46,484 nt of DNA from a virus. The stretch's first letter is position 1. Each line of letters opens with the position of its first letter. The stretch is from positions 1 to 46,484 of the IMG/VR virus record IMGVR_UViG_3300021792_000001, one strand, 5' to 3'. Of the stretch, positions 4,982-46,112 are shown one piece after another. Below the pieces are notes generated by a model that did not search any database, was not told the origin of the DNA, and worked only from the letters and a program-made list of their open reading frames with translations. The position numbers were made by a program, and so were the translations under genes.

Positions 4982-7900
4982 AAGTTCTGCCCCGTATCGC
5001 TGACCGTTATGTGCACTCGTCCACTTGCACGACCCTGTGCGTTGTAGATGTTTGAATAACCCAAAAATAGTACAGGGGTAATTGAACTAATATAGGGGAT
5101 TTCCATGCTTGCTTTCATGTAGTACACGCCCGCACTCTCCTCACCAGTTGTCCAAACGACACCGCCTAGATTGATCTGGGATCCGTTGGTAGAGTGAATC
5201 CTGAATATGTCATATCCAAATGAATAGACTCTTCGTGAGCCTCCAGACAAATCGCCTGTGTACAGTTCAAAACCGACGCCGTTCTTTCTCCAGCCTTTAT
5301 CAATTTCGTCATTAGAACGTATCTCTATATGGACATCGATTTTAATGTTTTCGCGCCTGCACCGATTTGAAACTTCATATGGACTGTGATTCATTGGAAC
5401 CACCGACAATACCATTGGATTGAATACCGATCTCTGGCTCCCCGTGTCACTACTAACAGAGTAACTAATTTGATTTGAGGACGTACGGCCTCCTATTAGC
5501 GTTTGCAAACATATAATCGGTATATTGCCACTGTTCACTATATCCGTTGGAGACATTGTGCCGTATGCGTACTGATTCCAATCACACATCAAATAACGAT
5601 TAGACGAGCCCTCGATGATCGTTGTGTCATACATGTATGCACCAGTGATCGTCCCTCTAAATACACCCGTTTGTGCGTATACAGCTCCATGAAACTCTCC
5701 TGAAGACGCCTCTATATGCCCCGTAACCGTCAAGGTGCCATCATCGGTCATGTTAGTAATGTAGTTGCCTGATTCATCACAAAAGTAAAAGCCACCGTCC
5801 TTATCGATAAATGACCGCCAATTTTCGCCGTCGTGATACCCCATATAGTTGCCATCAGCGTATAAACCTGCCGTACCATCTGGGGCTGGCAACATGCCAT
5901 CATTACCCTTTAGCTGCTCAAACGTGGTTACATCAACTGGCGTCTCATCAGAGCCACTTGTTGGAACTCGTAGAGTTGAGACAATCAGGTTTGAGGCATG
6001 TACCTCATCCCCAATCACAGTGAATGGATTGATGGTCCCGTTCTCTGTTTTGAATGCCATTTGATCAGCAATGAACTCTAGCGAACTCCCATCCTCGCCC
6101 ACGTTTGCAAATACACCCGCCAGCTGCTCGTTCACTAGTGCAAGCAAGGCTGCTGTAGCATTTGCGTTTCCTGCTTCATTGACTAAAGCCTGATACAAAG
6201 CACCAGCGCTGATTGTGATGTCATTACCATCCGAGTCTTTAGCAGCGATCTGAACATTACGCATAGCTTCCGCGATCGGGCGGTTTCCTTGCCAAGTATG
6301 GCCAGCCAGCTCACATGACTCCGCTGTCTCGTGGCTAGTGGGGTTTCCATCAGCATCAACACAGTAACCAATGGCTGCACGCTGGTAGTCCTCTACTTGC
6401 GCTTGGTTCTCATCGACGGTTGCTTTAAGTTCAGTGATACTCTGAGCAAGAGCTCCGTCCTCATCTGCACGAGCTTTGGACTCTTGCGCGATTTGTGCGG
6501 AACTCCTCTTGATCGCATCAGCTTGGGACACCTGCTCGCGTGCCGCAGCAGCAGCTTTACCAGCGCTCAGCAATGCCGCTTCTCCTAGCAGCTCTGTTGC
6601 TGTCTCAGCTTTATAGACACTGCTGATTTGCTGTGTGATTTGAGCGTTCTGTGCATCCAGTGTTTGCTCCACTGCATTAACACGTTCACCAAACTCTGTT
6701 TGGGCTTGAGATTGTGCAATTTGAGCAATTAGCGCTTCGGCACCATCAATCCATTGTGACGCTTCATTCGCTTTTAACAGTGTGCCGTTGCTGTCAAATT
6801 CCGCCAGAGTTGCAGTAATACCATACTCAGTATTCCAACTGTCTAGCGTTTGCTGAACATCACTCTGTTTAAGAGAGTTTTGCTCATACCACGAGGTTGT
6901 AACGTAGTTAGCGAGCTGACCATTTACAGCATCAAGCGTTTGCTCTGCAGTTGAAACACGACCCTGCAGACCTTCGATCGCTGTTTGCGCAGCTGTTCGC
7001 TTACCCGCTTGCACGGAGTACAGGCGATAAACATCAGCAACGGTTGCGCCTAAGATAATACGAAGACCGGTTATCGTATTTGCCGAATAATCGTTGTCAC
7101 TCCCTAAGTCAACGGTGACTGTGTATTGCTGACCATCGTCCGTGATTTCGGCGATCGATGCTTCGTGGCTTGCACTGTATCCGTGTGCATCCGTTTTCCA
7201 TTGAATACGACCACTCCAAACCGCTCCGGACTCACGCGCTAAAGCAAGCTGAATAACGGGGTTATCCGCACCGCTATAACTCATGTCTAGAGCGATATCG
7301 CCAAGGGTCAAATCCACCCAAGCACCGACATTGTAAGAAGCGGTACCGTTTTGAGCAGACCAGCCATCTAACCCTGTATTAAAGTTGGTTGCATAAGCTG
7401 GTTGGATAGCAGCGATCGCAGAGTTAACAGCTTCACTTAGCTCCGTATAAGTTGCTCGCTGATTAATGAGTCCAGATTGAAGCTCAAGCGCAGACTCTGC
7501 TGATTCAATACGACCCTCTGCCGTTTCAATACGGCTCGTTTGAGCTGTGATTGAATTATTGACACCATCGATTAACAGTGCAGCTTCGCTGAATTTTTCG
7601 TTAGTGTATTCGTATGCACGATTGACGATCGTACCGGTTGAAGGATCGATCGATACGACAGCATTTAGAATGCGGTAATACTCATCATTCTGAGATTGCT
7701 GCAGACGACGTTGCTCAGCCACTTTCGCCGCAGCTAGTAAAATTTGCTCCTGCGTTTGAGCGTTAACAGAATACGCCTTGGCATTAATCTGATTGATATC
7801 TGAGCTTATCTCAGCGTCACGCTCCGTTAACTGATTGATAGCGCGATCAACAGCATCCACCAGCGTGGCAGCTGAAAGCTGAGCAGGCTCCCCATAACCA

Positions 7901-10101
7901 AACGCATCATAGGATGCTACTGCAAAATAGTGCTCAGTATCAGACTCTAACCCTGTCACTCCGTACACATCACCGGCACCACGATATACGCGATTATCAT
8001 CAACTATCTGTACAGGTGTTTCTGTTGAAAGCCAGATACCCACACCGTTGGCATTATCAGGCGCTTGCGATGATACACGGATAGAGTCGCTCGACGCAGT
8101 GAAAGAAACCGTCGGTGCGACTGGAGCAGGCTTAGAGATGGCCAACGAAGCATAGTCACCCAACTCGCCGGAGATGTTTACACCATACACATGGATTTCA
8201 AATGACCTCGGATAACCGACTTCTTTGAAAACTTGAAGTCCAATCGACAAGCTCGGCACTTCACTAACTATTGTTGTTAGACTCACACCCTCATGAACAA
8301 TATCAATTTGATAATGGTTTAACTCAGGAGATTCTAGCGCGTCCCAGGTAAGCGTAAGTGAATCATCAAAATCACCAGTGACACGCAACCCGGTAATTTG
8401 TCTAGGAATCGGCACGGCAACAGAAAAGCTAATCTCTGTTGCTGCAGATCGAGTAATAGCGTTTCTTGCTCGAATGCTAGCCGTGTATGTGCCGCTAGGT
8501 AGCATAGGCAGCATAAAAGCAGGACGAAAATCGCCATCCCAGTCACTTGAATGAGCCACAGTAGAGACTACTACTGGGACTGCAGATGAATTAAACACCT
8601 CAATTATGTAATCATGAACAAACGCACTGTCAGGCTGTGACCACGTCAACCTACCAACTGAGCTTTCTCCCCATTGAGCCGCAAAGATTAATGAATCTAT
8701 AGCGGGAAGGCTTCGGGCATCGACAACCTCTGGAGCTGTTACGACCTCCTGGTCAGGCAAATCAATCCATGGAAACACACTAGGATCATAAGCGGCGCAT
8801 TCAAATGAAATGGAACCATCAGCAGAGATGGTTCGCGATGAAATACGCCACAAAATGCCATCGTTTAGACCTGGAACATCCATTACTATCAGATCGCCGC
8901 AGCGCACTTTGATCATCCAAGGCTGGGCCTCAAATGCCAGCTGACCACCATGGCGACTTTCCAATAACGCCTGTCGGGCTATATCAAGCGCTTGGTATCG
9001 ATTAGTGCACGAGTCAACGGTCAGATCTGCATGAGACTCTTCCCAATTATCCTCCTCGAGCAGCGTTTGATATTCAGCATCTTCAACCGGATAAGTTGCC
9101 TCGTTTTTACGCCACTCAGAGTCTGGATCAATGTATTTAACAGTGACTTTATTGTAGCGATCACGCGCACCGTTTGGGTTACGAGCAATATCTCCAATAA
9201 TGTCGTCGTATGTAATCGTATGATTCGGTGTCGCATCGTTCTGGATGATGTAACGCCATTGCCCACCGGTTTGAATCAGGAATGCACGACTTTCACTAAC
9301 TAGACGCTTAATGTTTTCAAGTGGCGGCTGACCAGTGTCGACCACTGTATTACACGCAAATCGTTTTACTTGAACACCACTATCAGTGCGGCTTTCATAG
9401 GTTTCATCGGCAATATTTGCTGACTGAGAAAATGAGTCGAAATCAATAAGATCATCATCCATCCCAACACCAAAACGCTTAGAACGGAAGTAATCAAGCA
9501 CAACCAAGGAGTGGTTGTCGGAAAAGTTCGTTTGACCGCTTCTAGGATCAAACAACTTGCGACCTTCGATGATTGACTCAAAATTGGGTAAGCCGCTATA
9601 TAAATCCTGGTCGTATTCGTAGCGAACTGCACAATAGACAATCCCCTGCAATCGGTGTTCATTTGTCCAGTCACCTAACTCAGACACAAACCTACTGTCT
9701 GCCGAATCATTATCCAACCCTAAATGGGCCGTATAAACCAGCTTTGAACCAAATTCAGAGGATGCCTTATCAGATATTGTTACTCCTTGAACACTCTGAA
9801 CTTCACCCTCACACTGAACTAAAACAGAGTATAGATATTTATTCTTATCTCCACGGCTGGTTAAGTAAACACGCGTTCCGCCGACTCTCATTCTTCCGTA
9901 AACAATAGGTATAGATGCAGACGCCGATGCTTTGTTAACAGTTGTGCCTTGATTTTGATCGGCTTCCTCAGGCTTTAAAAGGTCTGTTACCCAGTCGCCT
10001 GCTGCCTTCCAAGCATCATACACACCACCTAGAACGCCATTTGTTATAACACCAACAAAACTTTTAAATGGTTTAGTAAAGCTCTTAAGTGAAAACCCCA
10101 T
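4978..10101 (-). CDS. J: Central tail fibre / tip attachment protein, gpJ-like (1707 aa)
   Basis: This is the largest gene of the tail operon and the counterpart of lambda J. The N-terminal region (to about residue 430) matches the phage tail-tip hub pattern, with ASIPIVYGRMRVGG near residue 62 and a DLIVMDVPG beta region near 405. It is followed by about three fibronectin type III-like repeats (about 460-760) and long heptad-like coiled coils with many QT/AE residues (about 760-1270). A beta-rich C-terminal 450 residues would contact the receptor. A CVDADGNPTSHETAESCELAGH cysteine loop interrupts the coiled coil. The C-terminal part differs strongly in character from the N-terminal hub, as expected for host-range variation. 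Confidence 0.88.
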   Translation of the reverse strand: MGFSLKSFTKPFKSFVGVITNGVLGGVYDAWKAAGDWVTDLLKPEEADQNQGTTVNKASASASIPIVYGRMRVGGTRVYLTSRGDKNKYLYSVLVQCEGEVQSVQGVTISDKASSEFGSKLVYTAHLGLDNDSADSRFVSELGDWTNEHRLQGIVYCAVRYEYDQDLYSGLPNFESIIEGRKLFDPRSGQTNFSDNHSLVVLDYFRSKRFGVGMDDDLIDFDSFSQSANIADETYESRTDSGVQVKRFACNTVVDTGQPPLENIKRLVSESRAFLIQTGGQWRYIIQNDATPNHTITYDDIIGDIARNPNGARDRYNKVTVKYIDPDSEWRKNEATYPVEDAEYQTLLEEDNWEESHADLTVDSCTNRYQALDIARQALLESRHGGQLAFEAQPWMIKVRCGDLIVMDVPGLNDGILWRISSRTISADGSISFECAAYDPSVFPWIDLPDQEVVTAPEVVDARSLPAIDSLIFAAQWGESSVGRLTWSQPDSAFVHDYIIEVFNSSAVPVVVSTVAHSSDWDGDFRPAFMLPMLPSGTYTASIRARNAITRSAATEISFSVAVPIPRQITGLRVTGDFDDSLTLTWDALESPELNHYQIDIVHEGVSLTTIVSEVPSLSIGLQVFKEVGYPRSFEIHVYGVNISGELGDYASLAISKPAPVAPTVSFTASSDSIRVSSQAPDNANGVGIWLSTETPVQIVDDNRVYRGAGDVYGVTGLESDTEHYFAVASYDAFGYGEPAQLSAATLVDAVDRAINQLTERDAEISSDINQINAKAYSVNAQTQEQILLAAAKVAEQRRLQQSQNDEYYRILNAVVSIDPSTGTIVNRAYEYTNEKFSEAALLIDGVNNSITAQTSRIETAEGRIESAESALELQSGLINQRATYTELSEAVNSAIAAIQPAYATNFNTGLDGWSAQNGTASYNVGAWVDLTLGDIALDMSYSGADNPVIQLALARESGAVWSGRIQWKTDAHGYSASHEASIAEITDDGQQYTVTVDLGSDNDYSANTITGLRIILGATVADVYRLYSVQAGKRTAAQTAIEGLQGRVSTAEQTLDAVNGQLANYVTTSWYEQNSLKQSDVQQTLDSWNTEYGITATLAEFDSNGTLLKANEASQWIDGAEALIAQIAQSQAQTEFGERVNAVEQTLDAQNAQITQQISSVYKAETATELLGEAALLSAGKAAAAAREQVSQADAIKRSSAQIAQESKARADEDGALAQSITELKATVDENQAQVEDYQRAAIGYCVDADGNPTSHETAESCELAGHTWQGNRPIAEAMRNVQIAAKDSDGNDITISAGALYQALVNEAGNANATAALLALVNEQLAGVFANVGEDGSSLEFIADQMAFKTENGTINPFTVIGDEVHASNLIVSTLRVPTSGSDETPVDVTTFEQLKGNDGMLPAPDGTAGLYADGNYMGYHDGENWRSFIDKDGGFYFCDESGNYITNMTDDGTLTVTGHIEASSGEFHGAVYAQTGVFRGTITGAYMYDTTIIEGSSNRYLMCDWNQYAYGTMSPTDIVNSGNIPIICLQTLIGGRTSSNQISYSVSSDTGSQRSVFNPMVLSVVPMNHSPYEVSNRCRRENIKIDVHIEIRSNDEIDKGWRKNGVGFELYTGDLSGGSRRVYSFGYDIFRIHSTNGSQINLGGVVWTTGEESAGVYYMKASMEIPYISSITPVLFLGYSNIYNAQGRASGRVHITVSDTGQNL

Positions 10102-30814: not shown

Positions 30815-31975
30815 CTATTTCAACCTAACAACACCCCCACTCAACGCCCCCACCGCCTCGACCATCAACGGCCAAGCGTATCGGGACTGATAACGCCCAT
30901 CCAGATCGGACTGGGCGTGGTTAAGCAACATTTCACCCACACGGCTATCAACACCACTTTCCTGCCAATAATCACGCGCTAATTTGCGCATATCATGGCT
31001 GGTAAACTTCTGGCCGAACTCAGCCGAAAGCGTCTGGTACCACTTACTTACCGTACTGGTGTGAACAGGCTTCTTACCATTTTGAGAAAATACAAACTGA
31101 CCACCGCGTTTGGCCTTAGCCTCACGAAGCATCGACACCACTGCAGGTGCGATCGGCACTTTATGTTCAACACCCGTTTTCGTATTTTCAGCAGGGATAT
31201 ACCAAACCGCCTCATCAAGTGAAATATGCGTCCACTCAACTAAACACGTTTCCTCAATACGAGTCGCATGGCACAACTGCATAGTAAAAAACAAACGCCG
31301 CCAAAACTGACTTTCACGGATACACGCCGCCAGATCCGGCAACTGATAAGGCTTAATGCGCCCCGATCGCGCTGTTTCCTTATCTTGGGTAAAGTCACGC
31401 CAGCCCACATTCGCCAACGGATCGCGAGCAATCAAGCCCAACTTACCCGCCAGCGAACACGCACGCTTCAAGACGCCCCACACCTTATGCAGCGTCGACA
31501 CCGCCAAAGTAGACTGCTTAGGCATATAAACCCGCTTATAAAAATCCGTCTTAGACAGCAACTTAATCGCCACATCGCCCAGCGACCCCATCAAATGGTT
31601 ATAAATACAACTTTGGGCCGACGCCACATAACCCGCACTAAATGACTTATCCGCTTCGATATGATCCGCAAACCACAGCAACAGTGCTGACACATCCTTA
31701 ATCTGCTCAACCTTAGCCGACGAACGCTCACCCGCCATCAACTGAGTGCGGATCTCGCTTAACCGCTTAAACAAATCCGACGCCTTCAGTGCCGGCCATT
31801 TACCAAGCACCGTCCGCAGCTTCCTCTTGCCCTGGTAACGAACATCGTAAAACGTCCCGCCGGTGCGAGACACATTCGCCCGAAACTCAACACGGCGAGA
31901 ATCAAACAGCCATTCCTTATCACCCGCTGATAAAGTCGCACGAATCAGCGTATCCGTAATACGCTTAGATACCAC
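30815..31975 (-). CDS. Second tyrosine recombinase (386 aa), last gene of the early operon
   Basis: All catalytic positions are visible: Arg in HATRIEETC, Lys in ENTKTGVEHKV, HxxR in SHDMRKLARD, a His in LLNHAQSDLDGRYQ and the tyrosine just after (GRYQSRY). The N-terminal part resembles the arm-binding domain of P4-type integrases. GTG 31975 follows GGAG and overlaps the upstream gene by 11 bp. It is 14 kb from the right att and does not neighbour any att sequence. It occupies the place where lambdoids keep Q. It may resolve multimers, act at another site, or be a captured integrase. Confidence 0.85.
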   Translation of the reverse strand: MVSKRITDTLIRATLSAGDKEWLFDSRRVEFRANVSRTGGTFYDVRYQGKRKLRTVLGKWPALKASDLFKRLSEIRTQLMAGERSSAKVEQIKDVSALLLWFADHIEADKSFSAGYVASAQSCIYNHLMGSLGDVAIKLLSKTDFYKRVYMPKQSTLAVSTLHKVWGVLKRACSLAGKLGLIARDPLANVGWRDFTQDKETARSGRIKPYQLPDLAACIRESQFWRRLFFTMQLCHATRIEETCLVEWTHISLDEAVWYIPAENTKTGVEHKVPIAPAVVSMLREAKAKRGGQFVFSQNGKKPVHTSTVSKWYQTLSAEFGQKFTSHDMRKLARDYWQESGVDSRVGEMLLNHAQSDLDGRYQSRYAWPLMVEAVGALSGGVVRLK

Positions 31976-34974: not shown

Positions 34975-35669
34975 GCGGCACCTCCACGCAACATAGCGCG
35001 CAATGCTGCGGCTTTTTTACCGCCAGCCTCTCGATCAGCGGCACGCTCTTCTTTGGACATGCGCTTGTAGCGGCTTGCTGAGTTCTGGTCTTCCAACATA
35101 TCGCCCGTCTTTACAACATGACGTTTGGTCAATGGCTTGCCTGCTGCAATATCCGTTACCACTCCACCATAAGCGCGGTTAAACGCTTGCTTGGCTTCCT
35201 TCTCCTGCATGCGGTAGAAATCAAACGAACCAATGCGGTGAACCGCTTCCCAAATCGCGTTATTGGACCAGTCTTTATCAATCGCCAGTCGAAACGCCGT
35301 CGCCACATCAGGCAGATTGAAATCACCAGGGCGCGGTGCGCACATCTTCGCAAACTCACCCAGCGTTGGCGGCCAAGCCAAATTGTTATGAACACGCTCA
35401 TTCAGTGCACGGTTAACGCGCTCGTAACCAAACTCAACCAACGTACGCCCCCAAACCATCGCCGTTGCAGTTAACTGGCGATCAGCGCCCAGCAACTCAC
35501 CGTACTGACTCGACCAACGACTGCCGAACATGCTACTCATCCCCGCCCAGATATTCGCCGAGAACGTCTTGATATCCTCCGTCGGCGTATTGGCTTGTTT
35601 CTGGTTGGCTGAGTAATTCGTTGGCGTCGGCAATTGCACGCTCTGCAGCAGAGAGTTTACGTGTTGCAT
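34971..35669 (-). CDS. P: Replication protein P-like, helicase loader (232 aa)
   Basis: Length equals lambda P (233 aa). It has AMVWGRTLVEFGYERVNRALN near residue 70, WPPTLGEFAKMC near 99 and a basic C-terminal tail. It should bring host DnaB to the O-like protein at the origin. ATG 35669 has GGAGG 8 nt upstream. The first 137 nt overlap the O-like gene in another frame, a longer overlap than usual for lambda. Confidence 0.8.
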   Translation of the reverse strand: MQHVNSLLQSVQLPTPTNYSANQKQANTPTEDIKTFSANIWAGMSSMFGSRWSSQYGELLGADRQLTATAMVWGRTLVEFGYERVNRALNERVHNNLAWPPTLGEFAKMCAPRPGDFNLPDVATAFRLAIDKDWSNNAIWEAVHRIGSFDFYRMQEKEAKQAFNRAYGGVVTDIAAGKPLTKRHVVKTGDMLEDQNSASRYKRMSKEERAADREAGGKKAAALRAMLRGGAA

Positions 35670-36543
35670 GGTGGTGACCTCCGTGGGATGGCTGAGCTTG
35701 GCTAGTTTTTAGGGTTGGCAGGTGTTCATCGTTCCATTTTTCTTCGTTAATCCAGCGCACGCAGTGTGGCTGCCATTGAGCCTCGTTAGGGTTCTGAGCG
35801 TACAACGCCCCCCACTGCTCGGCTTTGGTGATGATGTTTTGCAGGTAGGCCAACGCCTCGTTGTAATTGTCTGCCAGCTTGAGTTTTAAGAATTTCTCCT
35901 TAGCTGGTTTCTTGCTACCACGACGACCGTAGCCAGCCCAGACGTGTTCAAACGCTTTGGCTAACAACTCGCGTTTGGCTTTGGCATCGAATTTTTGATC
36001 AACCACCACCGGAGCGGTTTCGTTCGATTCGACCGAATCGGACAAATGATCTAATGATTCACTGACTGATTCATTGACTGGTTCTAAAGTGACTGGTTCT
36101 GGGTGCATCTGATTCACCCCACCTAGTGCATCAGATTCACTAGGGGGTGCATCTGGTTCACTAGGGGATGCATCTGGTTCACTAGGGGATGCATCTGGTT
36201 CACTAGGGGATGCATCTGGTTCACTAGGTAATAAATACCCGATAATGTCGCCTTCTTCGTTATAAATTGGCTTCAATAGATGAAAATTCAGTTTGTAAAC
36301 GTTAGACGAATTTCCCTTAACCCCCTTGCGAACTGTCTTAGTCAATACGCCCGTTTTTTCCAAGAACTTGATATGCAATTGCACAGCACGCTTGCTGATT
36401 TCACACTGTTCAGCAATATAGTGATAACTAGGCCAGCACTCCCCTTGATCGCTTGCATTGTCTGCCAGCTTTAACAGTACGAGTTTACGCAGAGGGTTAC
36501 CCACCTTCGTTTTCATGGCTTTTACCATGAGATTCATACTCAT
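35533..36543 (-). CDS. O: Replication initiator O-like (336 aa), contains the origin
   Basis: Residues 12-80 form a winged-helix DNA-binding domain (NPLRKLVLLKLADNASDQGECWPSY, EISKRAVQLHIKFLE). A low-complexity SEPDASP repeat (about 105-140) is encoded by 21-bp iterons, so the origin lies inside the gene as in lambda O. A C-terminal domain (AFEHVWAGYGRRGSKKPAKEKF) follows. It overlaps the upstream gene by 4 bp and P by 137 bp. It binds its own iterons and recruits P-DnaB. Confidence 0.85.
   Translation of the reverse strand: MSMNLMVKAMKTKVGNPLRKLVLLKLADNASDQGECWPSYHYIAEQCEISKRAVQLHIKFLEKTGVLTKTVRKGVKGNSSNVYKLNFHLLKPIYNEEGDIIGYLLPSEPDASPSEPDASPSEPDASPSEPDAPPSESDALGGVNQMHPEPVTLEPVNESVSESLDHLSDSVESNETAPVVVDQKFDAKAKRELLAKAFEHVWAGYGRRGSKKPAKEKFLKLKLADNYNEALAYLQNIITKAEQWGALYAQNPNEAQWQPHCVRWINEEKWNDEHLPTLKTSQAQPSHGGHHHATRKLSAAERAIADANELLSQPETSQYADGGYQDVLGEYLGGDE
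36104..36231. repeat. ori: Replication origin iterons, 21-bp tandem repeats
   Basis: Copies of a 21-bp unit with TGCATCTGGTTCACTAGG begin at 36127, 36148, 36169, 36190 and 36211; an extra divergent copy starts at 36104. Each carries the GATGCATC palindrome in the middle copies. An AT-rich stretch follows at 36229-36300. This is the arrangement of the lambda origin inside gene O. Confidence 0.85.
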
Positions 36544-36866
36544 AGCCCAACCCCCAATCTGTTGACAGCGTCAACAAGCGGTCGAATATGAGGAACGTTC
36601 TGGGCAACAAGACCAGATATACAAGCCTCTTTTAATTCTATTTCAATGAGACCCATTGATTTGAGGCGCTTCAAACCATCAGTAGCTTCTCGCTTAGTAA
36701 AACCTACTGCCTCCGCATACCAACTGTATCCAGCAACGATCGGGTAGCCCTGATCATGCGAAGCAATATAAGAAAGCAACAGAACAGCTTTTGTATCAAC
36801 TTTTCCTTTTTCTGTTTTAATAGCGTGTAGCCAAGACAATGGAATAATTAAATCGCTCACTTCCAC
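36540..36866 (-). CDS. Winged-helix protein upstream of O (108 aa)
   Basis: Residues 20-75 fit a winged helix (KAVLLLSYIASHDQ, YAEAVGFTKREATDGLKRLKSMGLIEI). ATG 36866 lies 10 bp inside the upstream gene and the stop overlaps O by 4 bp. It is one of three adjacent small winged-helix proteins and could be a replication or early regulatory factor. Confidence 0.6.
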   Translation of the reverse strand: MEVSDLIIPLSWLHAIKTEKGKVDTKAVLLLSYIASHDQGYPIVAGYSWYAEAVGFTKREATDGLKRLKSMGLIEIELKEACISGLVAQNVPHIRPLVDAVNRLGVGL

Positions 36867-37141
36867 CCCCTCGCTTTATCAAGCAATGTGAAGGTGGCGA
36901 AGCCGTTACGCTTCTCAAAAGAAATCAGTCCTAGCTTGGCGAGTTGGAGCATCAAACGATAGGCTGTGTCATGCTTATCAACCACCGCTGGCAACTCAGA
37001 AATCACGCCGCTGTAGCTAACCATGCACTCAAGCTGCTTGCCTTTGGCAATGTCGTAAAGGTGCGAAAATACAGCCGCTTGAGAGAGGTTTAACCCCCAC
37101 TCAATGGCCTTCTGCTGATTGATGAAAATAGTCTGTTTCAC
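36857..37141 (-). CDS. Winged-helix protein (94 aa)
   Basis: The GTG start at 37141 overlaps the upstream stop. The sequence WGLNLSQAAVFSHLYD, then DKHDTAYRLMLQLAKLGLISFEKR fits an HTH with wing. Second in the row of winged-helix genes before O. No family name. Confidence 0.6.
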   Translation of the reverse strand: MKQTIFINQQKAIEWGLNLSQAAVFSHLYDIAKGKQLECMVSYSGVISELPAVVDKHDTAYRLMLQLAKLGLISFEKRNGFATFTLLDKARGWK

Positions 37142-37557
37142 GCCTCACCCCCAAAGCCATACGCCTGCATCATAAGCTTACGAGCACGCTCTGTGCGGAT
37201 TGCCAGCAGGTGTCGATCTGCCTTGGCGAACACTTGCTTAGGCGTGGCAGTCTTGGTGAACACCATCATGATCTTTAAAAACTCATACGCGGAATAAACA
37301 TGCAGATCATTGTCATACAAATTTTTAACGCGCTGAACGTAGCATGGCGTATTTTTCCATGGCTCATTTGGTCGCATATGAACACGTCCAAATCGGCTAG
37401 ATTTTAGGTGATCACAGTGTTTTAGATCACAATTGTGCAGAATCGATGACTCGATCGTTAATACATGCTCAGGCAAACAAAGCTCACCACAGTGCGGGAG
37501 AATGCGCAGATACTGATCTGCGCGTTTTGATAATTTTTTAAGGATGCGTAGATTCAT
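37138..37557 (-). CDS. Unknown early protein (139 aa)
   Basis: ATG 37557 follows GGAGGTG and overlaps the upstream stop (ATGA). Basic protein with several cysteines and histidines (LPHCGELCLPEHV, NCDLKHCDH), possibly a zinc-binding fold, then a basic helical C-terminus. It resembles small Vibrio phage regulators only in general character. Confidence 0.55.
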   Translation of the reverse strand: MNLRILKKLSKRADQYLRILPHCGELCLPEHVLTIESSILHNCDLKHCDHLKSSRFGRVHMRPNEPWKNTPCYVQRVKNLYDNDLHVYSAYEFLKIMMVFTKTATPKQVFAKADRHLLAIRTERARKLMMQAYGFGGEA

Positions 37558-37844
37558 ACCCACACCTCCATCACGTCACCGGATAGAGAAGGATTTTGCA
37601 GGGCGTAGACGCTGCATTTTGACTTGCGACCATTGTAAAACGGCGCGATATAACCTTCGCGCTGTAGCTCATCGATAGCCACGCGAACCTTATCAACGGA
37701 AATCTTGGATAATTCAGAAATTTCCTGTTCGTCCAACAGGATGCGAGGGGAACCGCCGAATACAGGCAGTTGTTTGATAGCGTTGCGAACTCGCTTAGCG
37801 TAAACGCTTAGGCGATCGTCAACCAATAGGCGTAATTGTGCCAT
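37554..37844 (-). CDS. Winged-helix protein after the Ash-like leader (96 aa)
   Basis: ATG 37844 with GGAG 8 nt upstream is the best start. Residues 40-75 form a winged-helix (DEQEISELSKISVDKVRVAIDELQREGYI). An in-frame extension reaches back to ATG 38120, but that part is dominated by an RNA fold and a terminator and reads like Ash/Icd-type frames. The gene is the first of the tightly overlapped early operon. It may be a Cro-like or replication regulator. Confidence 0.68.
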   Translation of the reverse strand: MAQLRLLVDDRLSVYAKRVRNAIKQLPVFGGSPRILLDEQEISELSKISVDKVRVAIDELQREGYIAPFYNGRKSKCSVYALQNPSLSGDVMEVWV

Positions 37845-37906
37845 GGTGAGTCTCCGAATGTGTTTTTTCAGGGACCACCAAATCGAAGTGCGAATTTCAA
37901 TAGGGT

Positions 37907-37986
37907 GGTCGGTCAAGTGGAGTTTCGCACTATCGGCACACAAACGGAAAGCCGACCTACCCGAAGGTAGCTCCACCCAACCGACC
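37907..37986 (-). ncRNA. Three-way-junction RNA in the Ash-like leader
   Basis: The closing stem pairs 37986-37971 with 37922-37907: 16 consecutive pairs, 13 Watson-Crick and 3 G-U, no bulge. Hairpin A, CTACC-TTCG-GGTAG (37970-37957), starts at the next base. Hairpin B, GTCGGC/GCCGAT with a 13-nt loop (37956-37932), follows without linker. A 9-nt single strand (37931-37923) leads back to the closing stem. A second copy with the same topology lies at 13048-13125. Confidence 0.75.
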
Positions 37987-38018
37987 ATAACAGGTAGGCA
38001 CAGGCGTGCAGCAGACAT

Positions 38019-38043
38019 AAAAAAACCGCTATTAAGGGCGGTT
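38019..38043 (-). terminator. Intrinsic terminator in the early operon leader
   Basis: AACCGC-CCTTAATA-GCGGTT followed by a T run on the minus strand, inside the Ash-like frame. It comes 33 nt before the three-way-junction RNA and stops early transcription before the replication genes unless it is suppressed. Confidence 0.85.
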
Positions 38044-38169
38044 CGTCTGCCCGTTTGTGAATTATCCGGAGTGCGAGTCCAGGCTGCCGATTTTGCGGCA
38101 ACGGTTAAATTATTGCTCATTGCTCTGTACCTGTCAAAAATTTTACAGATACATCGATTTATTAGTCTC

Positions 38170-38475
38170 TTACTTTTGATTGGCCTCTTGCCGATCGATG
38201 TTTCTTAGTTGTCCGAATCGCTGGTCTATGTCTTTCACCAGCTTACAAAGTTCAGGGTCGCCCCAATCTATGATTTCACACTTTGCTAAAAAAGCCCCTT
38301 GCGGGGCAATGTCGTAATGGCGTTCATCTAACAAAAGGGTCGATCTCAAATGCGGGTCAGTCGTTCCACTATCAAGACAACCATCATGGCCGCACTTACT
38401 AAAGTGTGATAGCTTCACAAGGACATCCCCCAATACTCTGCTCGGGCGCTTCACAGCGTGCCGACTAAGAGCCAT
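38170..38475 (-). CDS. Small early protein whose start lies in the C4-like repeat (101 aa)
   Basis: ATG 38475 lies in the 53-bp repeat, so residues 1-12 are shared with the short leader peptide of the other repeat copy. The rest has CGHDGC near residue 33 and an acidic C-terminus. A strong terminator (38288-38307) sits inside the frame, encoding PQGAFLA. This makes the protein-coding status uncertain; the region may serve chiefly as C4-like antisense and target RNA. Confidence 0.45.
   Translation of the reverse strand: MALSRHAVKRPSRVLGDVLVKLSHFSKCGHDGCLDSGTTDPHLRSTLLLDERHYDIAPQGAFLAKCEIIDWGDPELCKLVKDIDQRFGQLRNIDRQEANQK
38288..38307 (-). terminator. Intrinsic terminator downstream of the C4-like targets
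   Basis: GCCCC-GCAA-GGGGC followed by six T on the minus strand, about 50 nt after the second complementary target. It is the first of two terminators that early leftward transcription must pass. Confidence 0.85.
38357..38385 (-). promoter_or_regulatory. Candidate targets of the C4-like antisense RNA
   Basis: Minus-strand GATGGTTGT (38385-38377) is perfectly complementary to ACAACCATC of the repeat (38489-38481). CGACTGA (38363-38357) pairs with TTAGTCG (38468-38462) with one wobble. Two short targets in the same order as the antisense segments match the a'/b' and a''/b'' scheme of phage C4 RNA. Confidence 0.6.
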
Positions 38476-38492
38476 CTAACGATGGTTGTTTA
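38440..38492 (-). ncRNA. C4-like antisense RNA element, copy 1 (53-bp repeat)
   Basis: On the minus strand it has two short hairpins: CCATC-GTTA-GATGG, and a CGCT/AGCG stem. The sequence is identical to 38997-39049. Its 5' half and the linker between the hairpins are complementary to targets about 100 nt downstream. It overlaps the start codon of the 38475 frame. Confidence 0.65.
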
Positions 38493-38984: not shown

Positions 38985-39032
38985 TTAACTTGTTCCGCTC
39001 GGGCGCTTCACAGCGTGCCGACTAAGAGCCAT
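38985..39032 (-). CDS. 15-codon leader peptide in the second repeat
   Basis: Starts in the repeat and ends just before the ribosome binding site of the 70-aa gene. The first 12 codons equal those of the 38475 frame. Stop codons appear at once after divergence, so translation, if any, is of a short leader. Confidence 0.4.
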   Translation of the reverse strand: MALSRHAVKRPSGTS

Positions 39033-39049
39033 CTAACGATGGTTGTTTA
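38997..39049 (-). ncRNA. C4-like antisense RNA element, copy 2 (53-bp repeat)
   Basis: Identical to 38440-38492 at all 53 positions. Here the shared ATG (39032) leads only to a 15-codon peptide (MALSRHAVKRPSGTS) ending at 38985. No matching target pair lies downstream, so this copy may give a free antisense RNA acting in trans on copy 1 transcripts. Confidence 0.62.
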
Positions 39050-39280: not shown

Positions 39281-40033
39281 ATGCCAACCATTGAACCCCT
39301 TGATAAAGAAGTGAAGGCAAGCACTGCTGGTGCATGTTCGCTTGCCATGCAACGTATTATCAATGCATCACGCTATGAACGTAGCGAGGTGGCGGAGTAC
39401 TTAGGATTGTCGCTTGTTGCACTAGGCAGCCGAATGCGCGGTAGCGTGTCATTCTCGCTTGAAGAGGCCGTGATGATCTGCAAACTTGCGGAGATCCCCC
39501 TGGCTGATGCACTTAAAATTGGTGAAATGAGCCAAGAAGAGTTTGAAAACGCGTGGATCTACCAATGGCGGAGACGCAATTTTGCCAAGCATGTTGCGCA
39601 TCTAGTGGCTGACAAGGGATTAAATCACAGAGAAATCGCGGACATCTGTGGCTATAGCCAAAGCTGGCTAAGCACTGTCTTGAGTGGCAACCGAAAACTA
39701 ACTGGGCGAATTGCTCGCGTTATCGAAAAACGCCTAGAGCTTCCAGAAGATTTTCTTGATCGTAAGCCGCTAACACCACCCAAAGCCGCACAGATCGACG
39801 GCTCATTACTGGCTAAGACAGCCGCTCAACTGGTGGCGACCGTGCGCGGCGAAGGCTTCGAGATCGACAGTGATTTATTTAATATTTACGTAACGGCTAT
39901 AGTTCAACTTTATAATGCCCGTATCGCTACACGGGGCGGATATGACCCTGAAACCGATGCAGCCCAATTCCAGTCAGTTTATGACCAATTAGTACTACAG
40001 TTGAAAATGAAAGAAGGGCTTTGGAAGTATTAG
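39281..40033 (+). CDS. Repressor-like protein with two HTH domains, no S24 peptidase (250 aa)
   Basis: Two helix-turn-helix regions are visible: residues 20-65 (ERSEVAEYLGLSLVALGSRMRG) and 105-150 (NHREIADICGYSQSWLSTVLSGNRKLTGRIARVIEKRLELP). The C-terminal 80 residues are helical and contain no Ser/Lys S24 (LexA/CI) catalytic pattern, so it cannot self-cleave in SOS. It diverges from the early leftward transcript and is the best candidate for the lysogeny regulator. Prophage induction would therefore need an antirepressor or RNA control. Confidence 0.75.
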   Translation: MPTIEPLDKEVKASTAGACSLAMQRIINASRYERSEVAEYLGLSLVALGSRMRGSVSFSLEEAVMICKLAEIPLADALKIGEMSQEEFENAWIYQWRRRNFAKHVAHLVADKGLNHREIADICGYSQSWLSTVLSGNRKLTGRIARVIEKRLELPEDFLDRKPLTPPKAAQIDGSLLAKTAAQLVATVRGEGFEIDSDLFNIYVTAIVQLYNARIATRGGYDPETDAAQFQSVYDQLVLQLKMKEGLWKY

Positions 40034-44569: not shown

Positions 44570-44880
44570 GCGAGTTCATTAAGCCTAAATGGCCACGCAA
44601 ACAACGCATTCGTGATTACGCCAAGCAGCACTTTACTGACCCTGAAAAAGAGTTATCACGCTTACGCCGCCAACTAAAGGCTGGCGAATTACCGGGCATT
44701 TTGGAAGGAAAACTATGGTTTGTGTGGATTTTACCAGATGGCCAACCCGCGTATGGTTACAGTGAAGACGCACCAGTAAAGCCAGAAGTGAAGCGAGTGG
44801 AGCAAATCTCAACAGGTAACGCGATCGCAGACGCGATCCTTTTCAAACACGAAATTAAGCAAGGCACGGAATTACGATGA
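44566..44880 (+). CDS. xis: Excisionase-like protein (104 aa)
   Basis: The N-terminal half has a winged-helix of the excisionase type (RIRDYAKQHFTDPEKELSRLRRQLKAGELPG, then EGKLWFVWIL). Basic and adjacent to int with a 4-bp overlap, the usual Xis-Int order. It would bend DNA at attR and drive excision. The C-terminus is longer than lambda Xis (72 aa). Confidence 0.75.
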   Translation: MSEFIKPKWPRKQRIRDYAKQHFTDPEKELSRLRRQLKAGELPGILEGKLWFVWILPDGQPAYGYSEDAPVKPEVKRVEQISTGNAIADAILFKHEIKQGTELR

Positions 44881-46112
44881 ACCCACCAAGACCCAACCAA
44901 CTAGCACGCAATTTAAAGGTAATGCGTAACAAGTCCGGTACGTATTACTACTACAAAATGCCTGACGGAAAGCTAGAAGCGTTGGGCAAGAACATTGGTG
45001 ATGAGGTCGCACGAGATGCGGCCACCGCCCTAAACATTGCGTTAGCTGATCAAGAGTCATTGGTAAACCGTATCGCTCGCCGTGCCGAAGAGCTGAAAAC
45101 CTACAATCCAAGTAATCCGCCAATGAGCCAAGTGCTGGATGAGTTCAAGCACACGCTAGAAGTTGCAGTGGCTAACAAAAAGCAGGGCAAAGAAACAGTT
45201 AAGATCAAGCTGGGTAAGATCGACGAATATATGCAGCTGTGGTCAAAGATTCGCGTACAAGACATGCGCACCTTTGACCTAAACAATCTGCTGAAAACCA
45301 AAACACCACACGCCCAAAAAAAGCATGCACCACTGATGCGCGATATCTTCCGCTATGCGATCACTGCAGGTTACTGCGACATCAACCCAGCCGATCAGCT
45401 CAAAGCACAAGAGCCTGATCCGCGCGTTCGCCAACGCCACACCTGGGACGGCTTTATGAAAGTGTACCAAACGGCACCCGATTGGCTAAAACGTGCCATG
45501 GACATTGCGCTTTACAGTCTGCAACGTCGTAGCGACTTAGTAGAGATACAGATCGCCCGTGACATCGACACACCAACACGTTCGATCAAGATACTGCAGC
45601 GTAAAACGCGCAACTACAAAACACCAGTGCACCTAAGCATCAAGATGGGTGATCCACTATGGCAAGCCGTACACAGCGCTATCACCAGCCCAACGCACTG
45701 CCCTTACCTGATTCATTGCAGACCAGGGCGAATGGATAAGCGCGACCTAGCTGCTAAACCACACCCATTTGCGGTATTGCCAGATTACCTGACCAAAAAG
45801 TTCAGAGAGTTTCGAGATAAAAGCGGCGCTTACGATCACCTAGCACCAAAAGAACGCCCATCGTTCCACGACATCCGCGCACTAGGCATTATGCTCTACT
45901 TCAAAGCGGGATACCCAAAAGAATACATCATGGCACTGGCTGGCCACGCCACTGCAGAAATGACTGATCACTACATCGACGGCCACGAACAAGCCCAACC
46001 ACTAAGAGTCGCAGCTGGGCTCGACATTACTAAAGTCGACATGAACAACATCAACTGGAAAGACCACCGCATACCAAGCGAGTTGGTTAAGCTGATGGAT
46101 GAAGAGGGCTAA
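44877..46112 (+). CDS. int: Prophage integrase, tyrosine recombinase (411 aa)
   Basis: Catalytic residues are all in place: Arg in LQRRSDL, Lys in ILQRKTRNYKT, HxxR in FHDIRALG, His in LAGHATAEM and the nucleophilic Tyr in TDHYID. The N-terminal 60 residues form an arm-binding domain (YYYYKMPDGKLEALG); residues 80-165 form the core-binding domain. It ends 195 bp from the right tRNA repeat, so it is the integrase for this site. The stop lies inside the following terminator hairpin. Confidence 0.93.
   Translation: MNPPRPNQLARNLKVMRNKSGTYYYYKMPDGKLEALGKNIGDEVARDAATALNIALADQESLVNRIARRAEELKTYNPSNPPMSQVLDEFKHTLEVAVANKKQGKETVKIKLGKIDEYMQLWSKIRVQDMRTFDLNNLLKTKTPHAQKKHAPLMRDIFRYAITAGYCDINPADQLKAQEPDPRVRQRHTWDGFMKVYQTAPDWLKRAMDIALYSLQRRSDLVEIQIARDIDTPTRSIKILQRKTRNYKTPVHLSIKMGDPLWQAVHSAITSPTHCPYLIHCRPGRMDKRDLAAKPHPFAVLPDYLTKKFREFRDKSGAYDHLAPKERPSFHDIRALGIMLYFKAGYPKEYIMALAGHATAEMTDHYIDGHEQAQPLRVAAGLDITKVDMNNINWKDHRIPSELVKLMDEEG

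Follow-up and report, generated by a model that had tools for sequence, protein, structure and literature searches.

The 46,484-nt stretch of viral DNA analysed here (IMG/VR virus record IMGVR_UViG_3300021792_000001, positions 1 to 46,484; hereafter the window) carries on its minus strand a leader made up of a promoter, a1, b1, a terminator, C4, a2, b2 and the ribosome-binding site of a small ORF, which are all the elements known from phage P1 in the same order. The promoter is of the sigma-70 type (TTGACA-17-AATAAT, 38109..38137, minus strand; 11/12 hexamer matches) and its -10 box lies 12 nt before the motif GCAAAAT, a distance equal to that in relatives. Transcription would be expected to start at about 38102, the first base of a match to isrK RNA (RF01394, 38019..38102, minus strand), which carries a1 and b1 and barely reaches the curated cut-off of its family (50.7 bits versus 50). 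An intrinsic terminator (38023..38044, minus strand, with a U tract to about 38019) ends the isrK RNA, in agreement with the isrK alignment. C4 follows, and beyond it lie a2 and b2, the latter holding the Shine-Dalgarno sequence GGAG (37855-37852) of a 96-aa ORF (37554..37844, minus strand, ATG at 37844). This ORF occupies the place of icd in P1 and of kil in P4, is predicted to be controlled by C4 and has weak winged-helix matches below the cut-off (HTH_36, E 0.0045). Located downstream (35533..37563, minus strand) are genes of 141, 94 and 108 aa, along with a replication initiator of 336 aa (phrog_270, E 2e-39). A divergent 250-aa protein with tandem helix-turn-helix motifs (39281..40033, plus strand), which matches helix-turn-helix repressor families, is a probable repressor.

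Between the leader and the divergent gene are two 56-nt direct repeats (38437-38492 and 38994-39049), which are 98% identical, are 557 nt apart and each hold the palindrome CCATC-TAAC-GATGG, so that they could be operator sites. A terminator-like site (38307-38294, minus strand) is found upstream of the leader within a 101-aa ORF (38475-38170). Elsewhere in the window, two ORFs resemble tyrosine integrases as judged by eye (30815-31975, minus strand, and 44877-46112, plus strand), the second of which adjoins a tRNA (46384-46311, minus strand) that probably marks the attachment site.

Folded alone, the minus strand of 37986-37907 forms a three-way junction of -41.4 kcal/mol (z -4.96; 0/200 shuffled sequences equally stable), whereas the plus strand of the same 80 nt gives a weaker and different structure (-31.5, z -4.18). 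The junction is composed of a 16-bp outer stem (P1), a 5-bp hairpin with a UUCG loop at 37965-37962 (P2) and a 6-bp hairpin with a 13-nt loop (P3), P2 and P3 being joined by a linker of zero nt. The 16-bp stem, the two linkerless hairpins and the UUCG loop described in an initial annotation of this DNA are hence real and belong to the minus strand, but nine unpaired nucleotides that come after P3 (37931-37923) had been overlooked there. A blind comparison of the entire window with the 4,227 RNA families of Rfam gave four matches in total, and the region was recognized as C4 antisense RNA (RF01695, 37901..37992, minus strand), with 62.8 bits against a curated cut-off of 45 (E 6e-10) and a match spanning the full model (positions 1-87). 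A separate match in the same window, to sRNA-Xcc1 (RF02221, 13125-13040, minus strand, 58.2 bits versus 53), lies upstream of two ORFs.

The P3 loop (37938..37950, minus strand) and the nine nucleotides after P3 (37923..37931, minus strand) are the two antisense segments of the window C4, termed b' and a', respectively; both are unpaired in the fold and are positioned as their counterparts in phage P1. The segment a' pairs with a1 (CUCGCACUC, 38069..38077, minus strand, -11.0 kcal/mol) upstream of C4 and with a2 (AUUCGCACUUCG, 37884..37895, minus strand, -12.9 kcal/mol) downstream of it. Likewise, b' pairs with b1 (UCACAAACGGGC, 38049..38060, minus strand, -14.4 kcal/mol) and with b2 (ACACAUUCGGAGA, 37850..37864, minus strand, -15.3 kcal/mol), the latter duplex having two U-U mismatches in its middle. 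Rfam also holds a c4-a1b1 family (RF03163), described as "a1, b1 targets of C4", to which a permissive scan assigned only 21.0 bits at 38115-38063 (minus strand), below the curated cut-off of 46.7, although the complementarity of a1 and b1 to C4 is present in the window. As far as sequence can settle the matter, the feature at 37986-37907 is a C4 antisense RNA and thus one more member of a known family; a novel RNA class is ruled out by the clear Rfam membership.

The frame that overlies C4 is open for 188 aa (37554..38120, minus strand) and encloses the 96-aa ORF in frame, as eta encloses kil in P4, the inner ATG at 37844 lying within an ORF whose own ATG at 38120 is upstream of the start site. 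Since the ATG of the 188-aa frame sits between the -35 and -10 boxes of the leader promoter, this promoter cannot express the 188-aa frame. The initial annotation had likened the frame to Ash/Icd-like phage proteins, a likeness that holds for its position and architecture but does not extend to its sequence: no match was obtained to PF10554 at E values up to 1 (Pfam, membership threshold 26 bits) or to the Icd-like model NF033153 at E values up to 0.01 (NCBIfam, membership threshold 25 bits), and tblastn with the 188-aa frame as query yielded no relative among viral contigs and phages.

The fold of C4 is maintained by compensatory change in relatives. Among 68 diverse C4s that share less than 80% identity in pairwise comparison, standard base pairs are formed in 96.7% of 1,833 stem cells, and both partners have changed in 22 of the 27 stem pairs, with a covariation score of 0.570 compared to 0.245 ± 0.009 in shuffled alignments (0/500) and 0.09-0.12 when the partners were slid. 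Covariation of the stems, which the initial annotation had proposed as a check on the fold, is therefore strong. The loops were compared with their targets in 237 loci, of which 231 were parsed by a rule-based parser, 227 were usable and 126 were kept below 85% identity; this parser replaced one based on minimum free energy, by which 163 of 167 folded to the junction and only 74 were usable for pairing. All four loop-target pairings were better than those with swapped partners (z -20 to -31, 0/2,000 permutations each, 126 nonredundant loci), and, depending on the pairing, the locus's own target ranked within the top 5% of partners at 71 to 97 of the 126 loci. Because targets bind their own locus better than swapped ones, the sequences argue that the antisense system is real and co-evolves locus by locus. 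These data also bear on the idea that the repeat acts as DNA, namely as a cruciform or a protein-binding palindrome, rather than as RNA. A 16-bp inverted repeat would be able to extrude, yet G-U pairs are tolerated in the stems (e.g. pairs 10-89, 11-88 and 18-81), the loops pair with RNA targets, and a promoter and a terminator flank the unit, which leaves this idea hardly credible; the G-U pairs and RNA targets led us to discard a DNA cruciform.

The relation of C4 to the Ash protein family was followed in 149 genomes of one bacterial family, in which a profile search with PF10554 (Phage_ASH) gave 114 matches in 56 genomes and a search with RF01695 gave at least 150 C4s (150 matches listed). 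Among the matches listed, 97 of the 114 PF10554 matches overlap a C4 on the same strand. When the remaining 17 were scanned singly, all had a C4, with which 16 overlap (one by 3 nt only), while the last lies 4 nt upstream of its C4, within isrK. Six further matches in other genomes and one in a class-wide sample of 321 genomes all overlap a C4 as well, which brings the total to 120 out of 121 distinct PF10554 matches that have a same-strand C4 beneath them. The codon phase relative to C4 is identical in 109/114 matches, and in-frame stops are present in 50/114. The converse relation is weaker, with a PF10554 match on 95 of the 150 C4s among the matches listed. Up to 20 C4 matches per genome were observed in four genomes, which could reflect either many separate immunity groups or host-adopted copies, the latter having been proposed for Acinetobacter in the sections covered of a study on C4 (PMC5320573).

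The boundaries of the profile coincide with elements of the leader. Position 1 of PF10554 is the first base of a hexamer located 18 nt before the isrK landmark GCAAAAT/A in 41/41 mappable cases; the hexamer is TATAGT or near it in the consensus of 105 loci, and the P1 record labels the corresponding hexamer as the -10 signal of promoter P1c4. Promoter hexamers with at least 9/12 matches occur in 28/105 loci (2/105 on the reverse strand), the -10 box being conserved and the -35 box not. At the other end, the profile terminates 27-36 nt inside the downstream ORF in 26/35 cases. The Icd-like model NF033153 matches only the stretch after C4, and it also matches Icd of P1 and the end of the "cI" ORF of P4. 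The P4 match of PF10554 (59.7 bits) falls on the "cI" ORF, which overlies the CI RNA, a member of the C4 family, whereas epsilon matches PF25738 instead (170 bits); the coordinates in this comparison are 8168-8584 for the "cI" ORF and 7888-8175 for epsilon. Similar DNA occurs in 1,794 of the 5,426 complete genomes of E. coli, and most of the 40 listed out of 1,802 similar E. coli records bear the name "ash family protein", "Icd-like" or Rha. One E. coli prophage (L262) has two successive isrK-C4 units (1130-1318 and 1786-1974), which lie under an "ash family protein" and the next "Rha" gene.

Selection on codons was analysed in 166 loci other than the window, of which 49 are open in the Ash frame over -150..+75, giving 20 or 22 disjoint open pairs. 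In 20 open pairs, the rates at codon positions 1/2/3 are 0.209/0.202/0.187 upstream of C4 (pN/pS 0.92), 0.113/0.135/0.118 within C4 (pN/pS 0.96) and 0.158/0.183/0.163 after C4 (pN/pS 0.90), and pN/pS of the Ash frame is no lower than in the other two frames. Over the whole Ash stretch, the ratio of position 3 to positions 1 and 2 is 0.95 (bootstrap 0.84-1.08, 22 open pairs), and it is 0.88 (bootstrap 0.76-1.00) in the 11 pairs whose Ash frame continues into the next ORF. The downstream ORF, used as a positive control, has rates of 0.215/0.157/0.405 and a pN/pS of 0.34 (40 pairs), demonstrating that the same test is able to detect coding. The Ash stretch hence shows no amino-acid selection, whereas the Icd-like and other downstream ORFs do. 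An ordinary protein-coding gene was discarded for want of a codon signal. Flat codon positions together with covarying stems are the opposite of purifying selection at the protein level without compensatory changes, the outcome that the initial annotation had named as speaking against a misread RNA.

That the frame encodes a genuine Ash/Icd-like protein and that its codons fold well by chance, with the RNA being incidental, is very unlikely given these rates in open loci, the difference in pN/pS between the Ash stretch (0.90-0.96) and the downstream ORF, the stops in almost half of the PF10554 matches, the covariation of the stems and the identity of profile position 1 with the -10 box, even though the window frame is open over 188 aa, the Ash frame is the most open one in relatives, PF10554 has been curated as a family, and translation of P4 eta is reported in the sections covered of a secondary source (PMC10111431). 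The suspicion that the protein family is partly a misread regulatory RNA is accordingly borne out for Ash, by the matches lying on C4, the flat codons and the covariation, but fails for the Icd-like half, which is a real protein as the downstream ORF is plainly coding. "Misread" suits the amino-acid family better than it would a claim that no ribosome passes, considering the translation of eta. The view that the amino-acid likeness among Ash frames is a by-product of the promoter box, isrK, the terminator and C4, rather than of selection on a protein, largely holds as judged from these alignments. PF10554 is thus probably not a protein family in anything but name, the conserved columns being the conceptual translation of an immunity leader and the frame at most a track for ribosomes; its columns would likely represent the -10 box of the isrK promoter (position 1), the a1/b1 RNA, the terminator, C4 and a2/b2.

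Openness of the Ash frame exceeds what a pure by-product needs and counts against that reading. The frame is open in 108 of 150 C4 cores (59 and 60 for the other frames) and, over 130 nt upstream of C4, in 64 of 150 (36 and 33 for the other frames); among 53 distinct cores from other groups that were found by pattern, it is open in 47 compared to 30 and 37. Of the codons that differ within pairs, those with a stop in just one member number 65 of 1,507 for the Ash frame versus 242 of 3,074 for the other two, and the next ORF is in frame in 29/48 open loci. A null model based on column resampling (43/68 open versus 30.8 ± 3.8) was set aside, as it mixes tetraloops and manufactures stops in the Ash frame. 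These observations would fit a general dual use of the eta type, in which the frame is kept open so that ribosomes on transcripts from an upstream promoter can pass and immunity is switched off, stops but not amino acids being selected against. The precedent is P4, where, in the sections covered of the secondary source, a constitutive promoter lies inside eta and its transcript is ended early via CI RNA and seqA, Kil is a truncated Eta, full-length Eta is made only from the upstream late promoter, and translation of Eta prevents termination (PMC10111431). The window has the same nesting. However, a count that allows for mutational opportunity reveals no depletion of stop turnover (observed/expected 1.08 versus 1.12 and 1.00 in the other frames), and stops occur in the Ash frame of 42/150 C4 cores and 86/150 upstream stretches. 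Moreover, an in-frame next ORF makes no significant difference to whether the C4 core is open (p 0.14), and the frame of the next ORF stays open past C4 in 47/143 cases, a small excess over the other two frames (37 and 33). We therefore do not regard stop avoidance as proven, the corrected count standing against the raw openness and pair counts, and hold general dual use to be a tentative proposal that falls a little short of an even chance; it would add to the explanation by a C4 switch, not replace it.

The locus of the window is, with high confidence, an antisense-RNA immunity switch of a prophage, of the type of C4 in P1 and CI in P4. This is carried by the structure, the covariation in relatives, the complementarities, the order of parts, the sequence patterns of promoter and terminator, the position of the ribosome-binding site inside b2 and the missing codon signal in relatives, whereas processing, repression, termination, immunity and override by the long frame are what we infer by analogy with the known systems. 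The promoter at 38137-38109 would produce a leader with isrK (a1, b1), the terminator, C4, a2 and b2, followed by the small ORF that heads the replication-initiator operon. C4 would be excised from this leader, as by RNase P in P1; cleavage by RNase P at GGU is known for the C4 of P1/P7 in the sections covered of PMC5320573, and the GGU at 37986-37984 is a candidate site. Subsequently, a' would pair with a1/a2 and the loop b' with b1/b2 and, as the ribosome-binding site lies within b2, the first ORF would no longer be translated. Transcription of the operon would then end early, as in P4, such that the prophage would stay silent and the cell would be immune to phages with the same sites. For isrK of the window two views can be taken, namely that it is a target of C4 or that it also serves as a decoy for C4. 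The long frame over C4 should be readable only from a promoter upstream of the leader promoter, and such reading may override immunity, as eta carries ribosomes through in P4.

P4 specialists have long been aware that CI lies within a longer frame. C4 and CI RNA are already known, and what is new is the consequence for PF10554. In the parts covered of the literature on PF10554, Phage_ASH, ash or Icd-like proteins, no statement was found that the family is the shadow of an RNA, and a literature search on spurious overlap between Pfam and RNA found nothing. In the sections covered, PF10554 serves a survey of P4-like satellites as its profile for epsilon, the helper-derepression protein (PMC8628076), and work on Shiga phages mentions that Rha proteins carry an "Ash domain" of unknown function (PMC8951638); both are likely to have recorded the immunity RNA. 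If this is true, "ash" gene annotations, "Ash domains" of Rha proteins and surveys that take PF10554 for epsilon are records of C4/CI immunity RNAs. With PF10554 present in 56 of 149 genomes of one bacterial family, in effect always on C4, reading it as an RNA marker would allow gene calls to be corrected and would turn surveys into maps of RNA-based immunity, the specificity of which could be read from the a' and b' loops.

Among the systems compared, the IsrK - STnc1160/orf45 - anrP region of Gifsy-1 shares with the window isrK, a terminator, a processed RNA directly after it that has complementary sequence in common with isrK, and a controlled gene, but the model proposed by its authors is activation of orf45 by a short IsrK and its downstream gene is an antirepressor; the sections covered of the Gifsy-1 study compare the RNA downstream of isrK with P4 CI and do not name it C4 (PMC4825925). 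The PF10554 matches sit on the same leader in relatives (120/121), whereas the frame of the window has no such match. The orf37 region of SfV likewise has isrK and C4 inside a regulator ORF with a replication protein two ORFs on, and in both SfV and Ayreon the same RNA pair lies over an "immunity region" or regulator ORF with a replication protein next; the long ORF of SfV, however, starts far upstream (278 aa), and no sequence similarity to the 188-aa frame of the window was found. SfV was reportedly treated by Roberts et al. in 2007, and P4 eta/kil is said to have been treated by Forti et al. in 1999. The resemblance to CI RNA, seqA and kil-eta of P4 consists in C4 and isrK matches falling on P4 CI and seqA, in a short ORF nested in frame within a longer one whose start precedes the promoter, and in replication genes downstream; the window differs in being a full-size prophage with a divergent helix-turn-helix protein rather than a satellite, and in its short ORF of 96 aa compared to 65 aa for kil. 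Relative to C4 in the immI region of P1/P7 (a1-b1-c4-a2-b2-icd-ant), the ORF controlled in the window is not Icd-like by profile, and a replication operon instead of an antirepressor follows directly. The Rfam family, the order of parts, the antisense segments at the same two places of the fold and the adjoining of b2 to the start codon of a small ORF are nevertheless shared, and the promoter and terminator of the window are placed as in P1 and relatives. In the P1 record AF234172, a1, b1, c4, a2, b2 and icd are annotated in that order. In P1, a1 and a2 are complementary to the single-stranded segment that follows the second hairpin, and b2, as well as b1 but for one base, is complementary to the hairpin loop.
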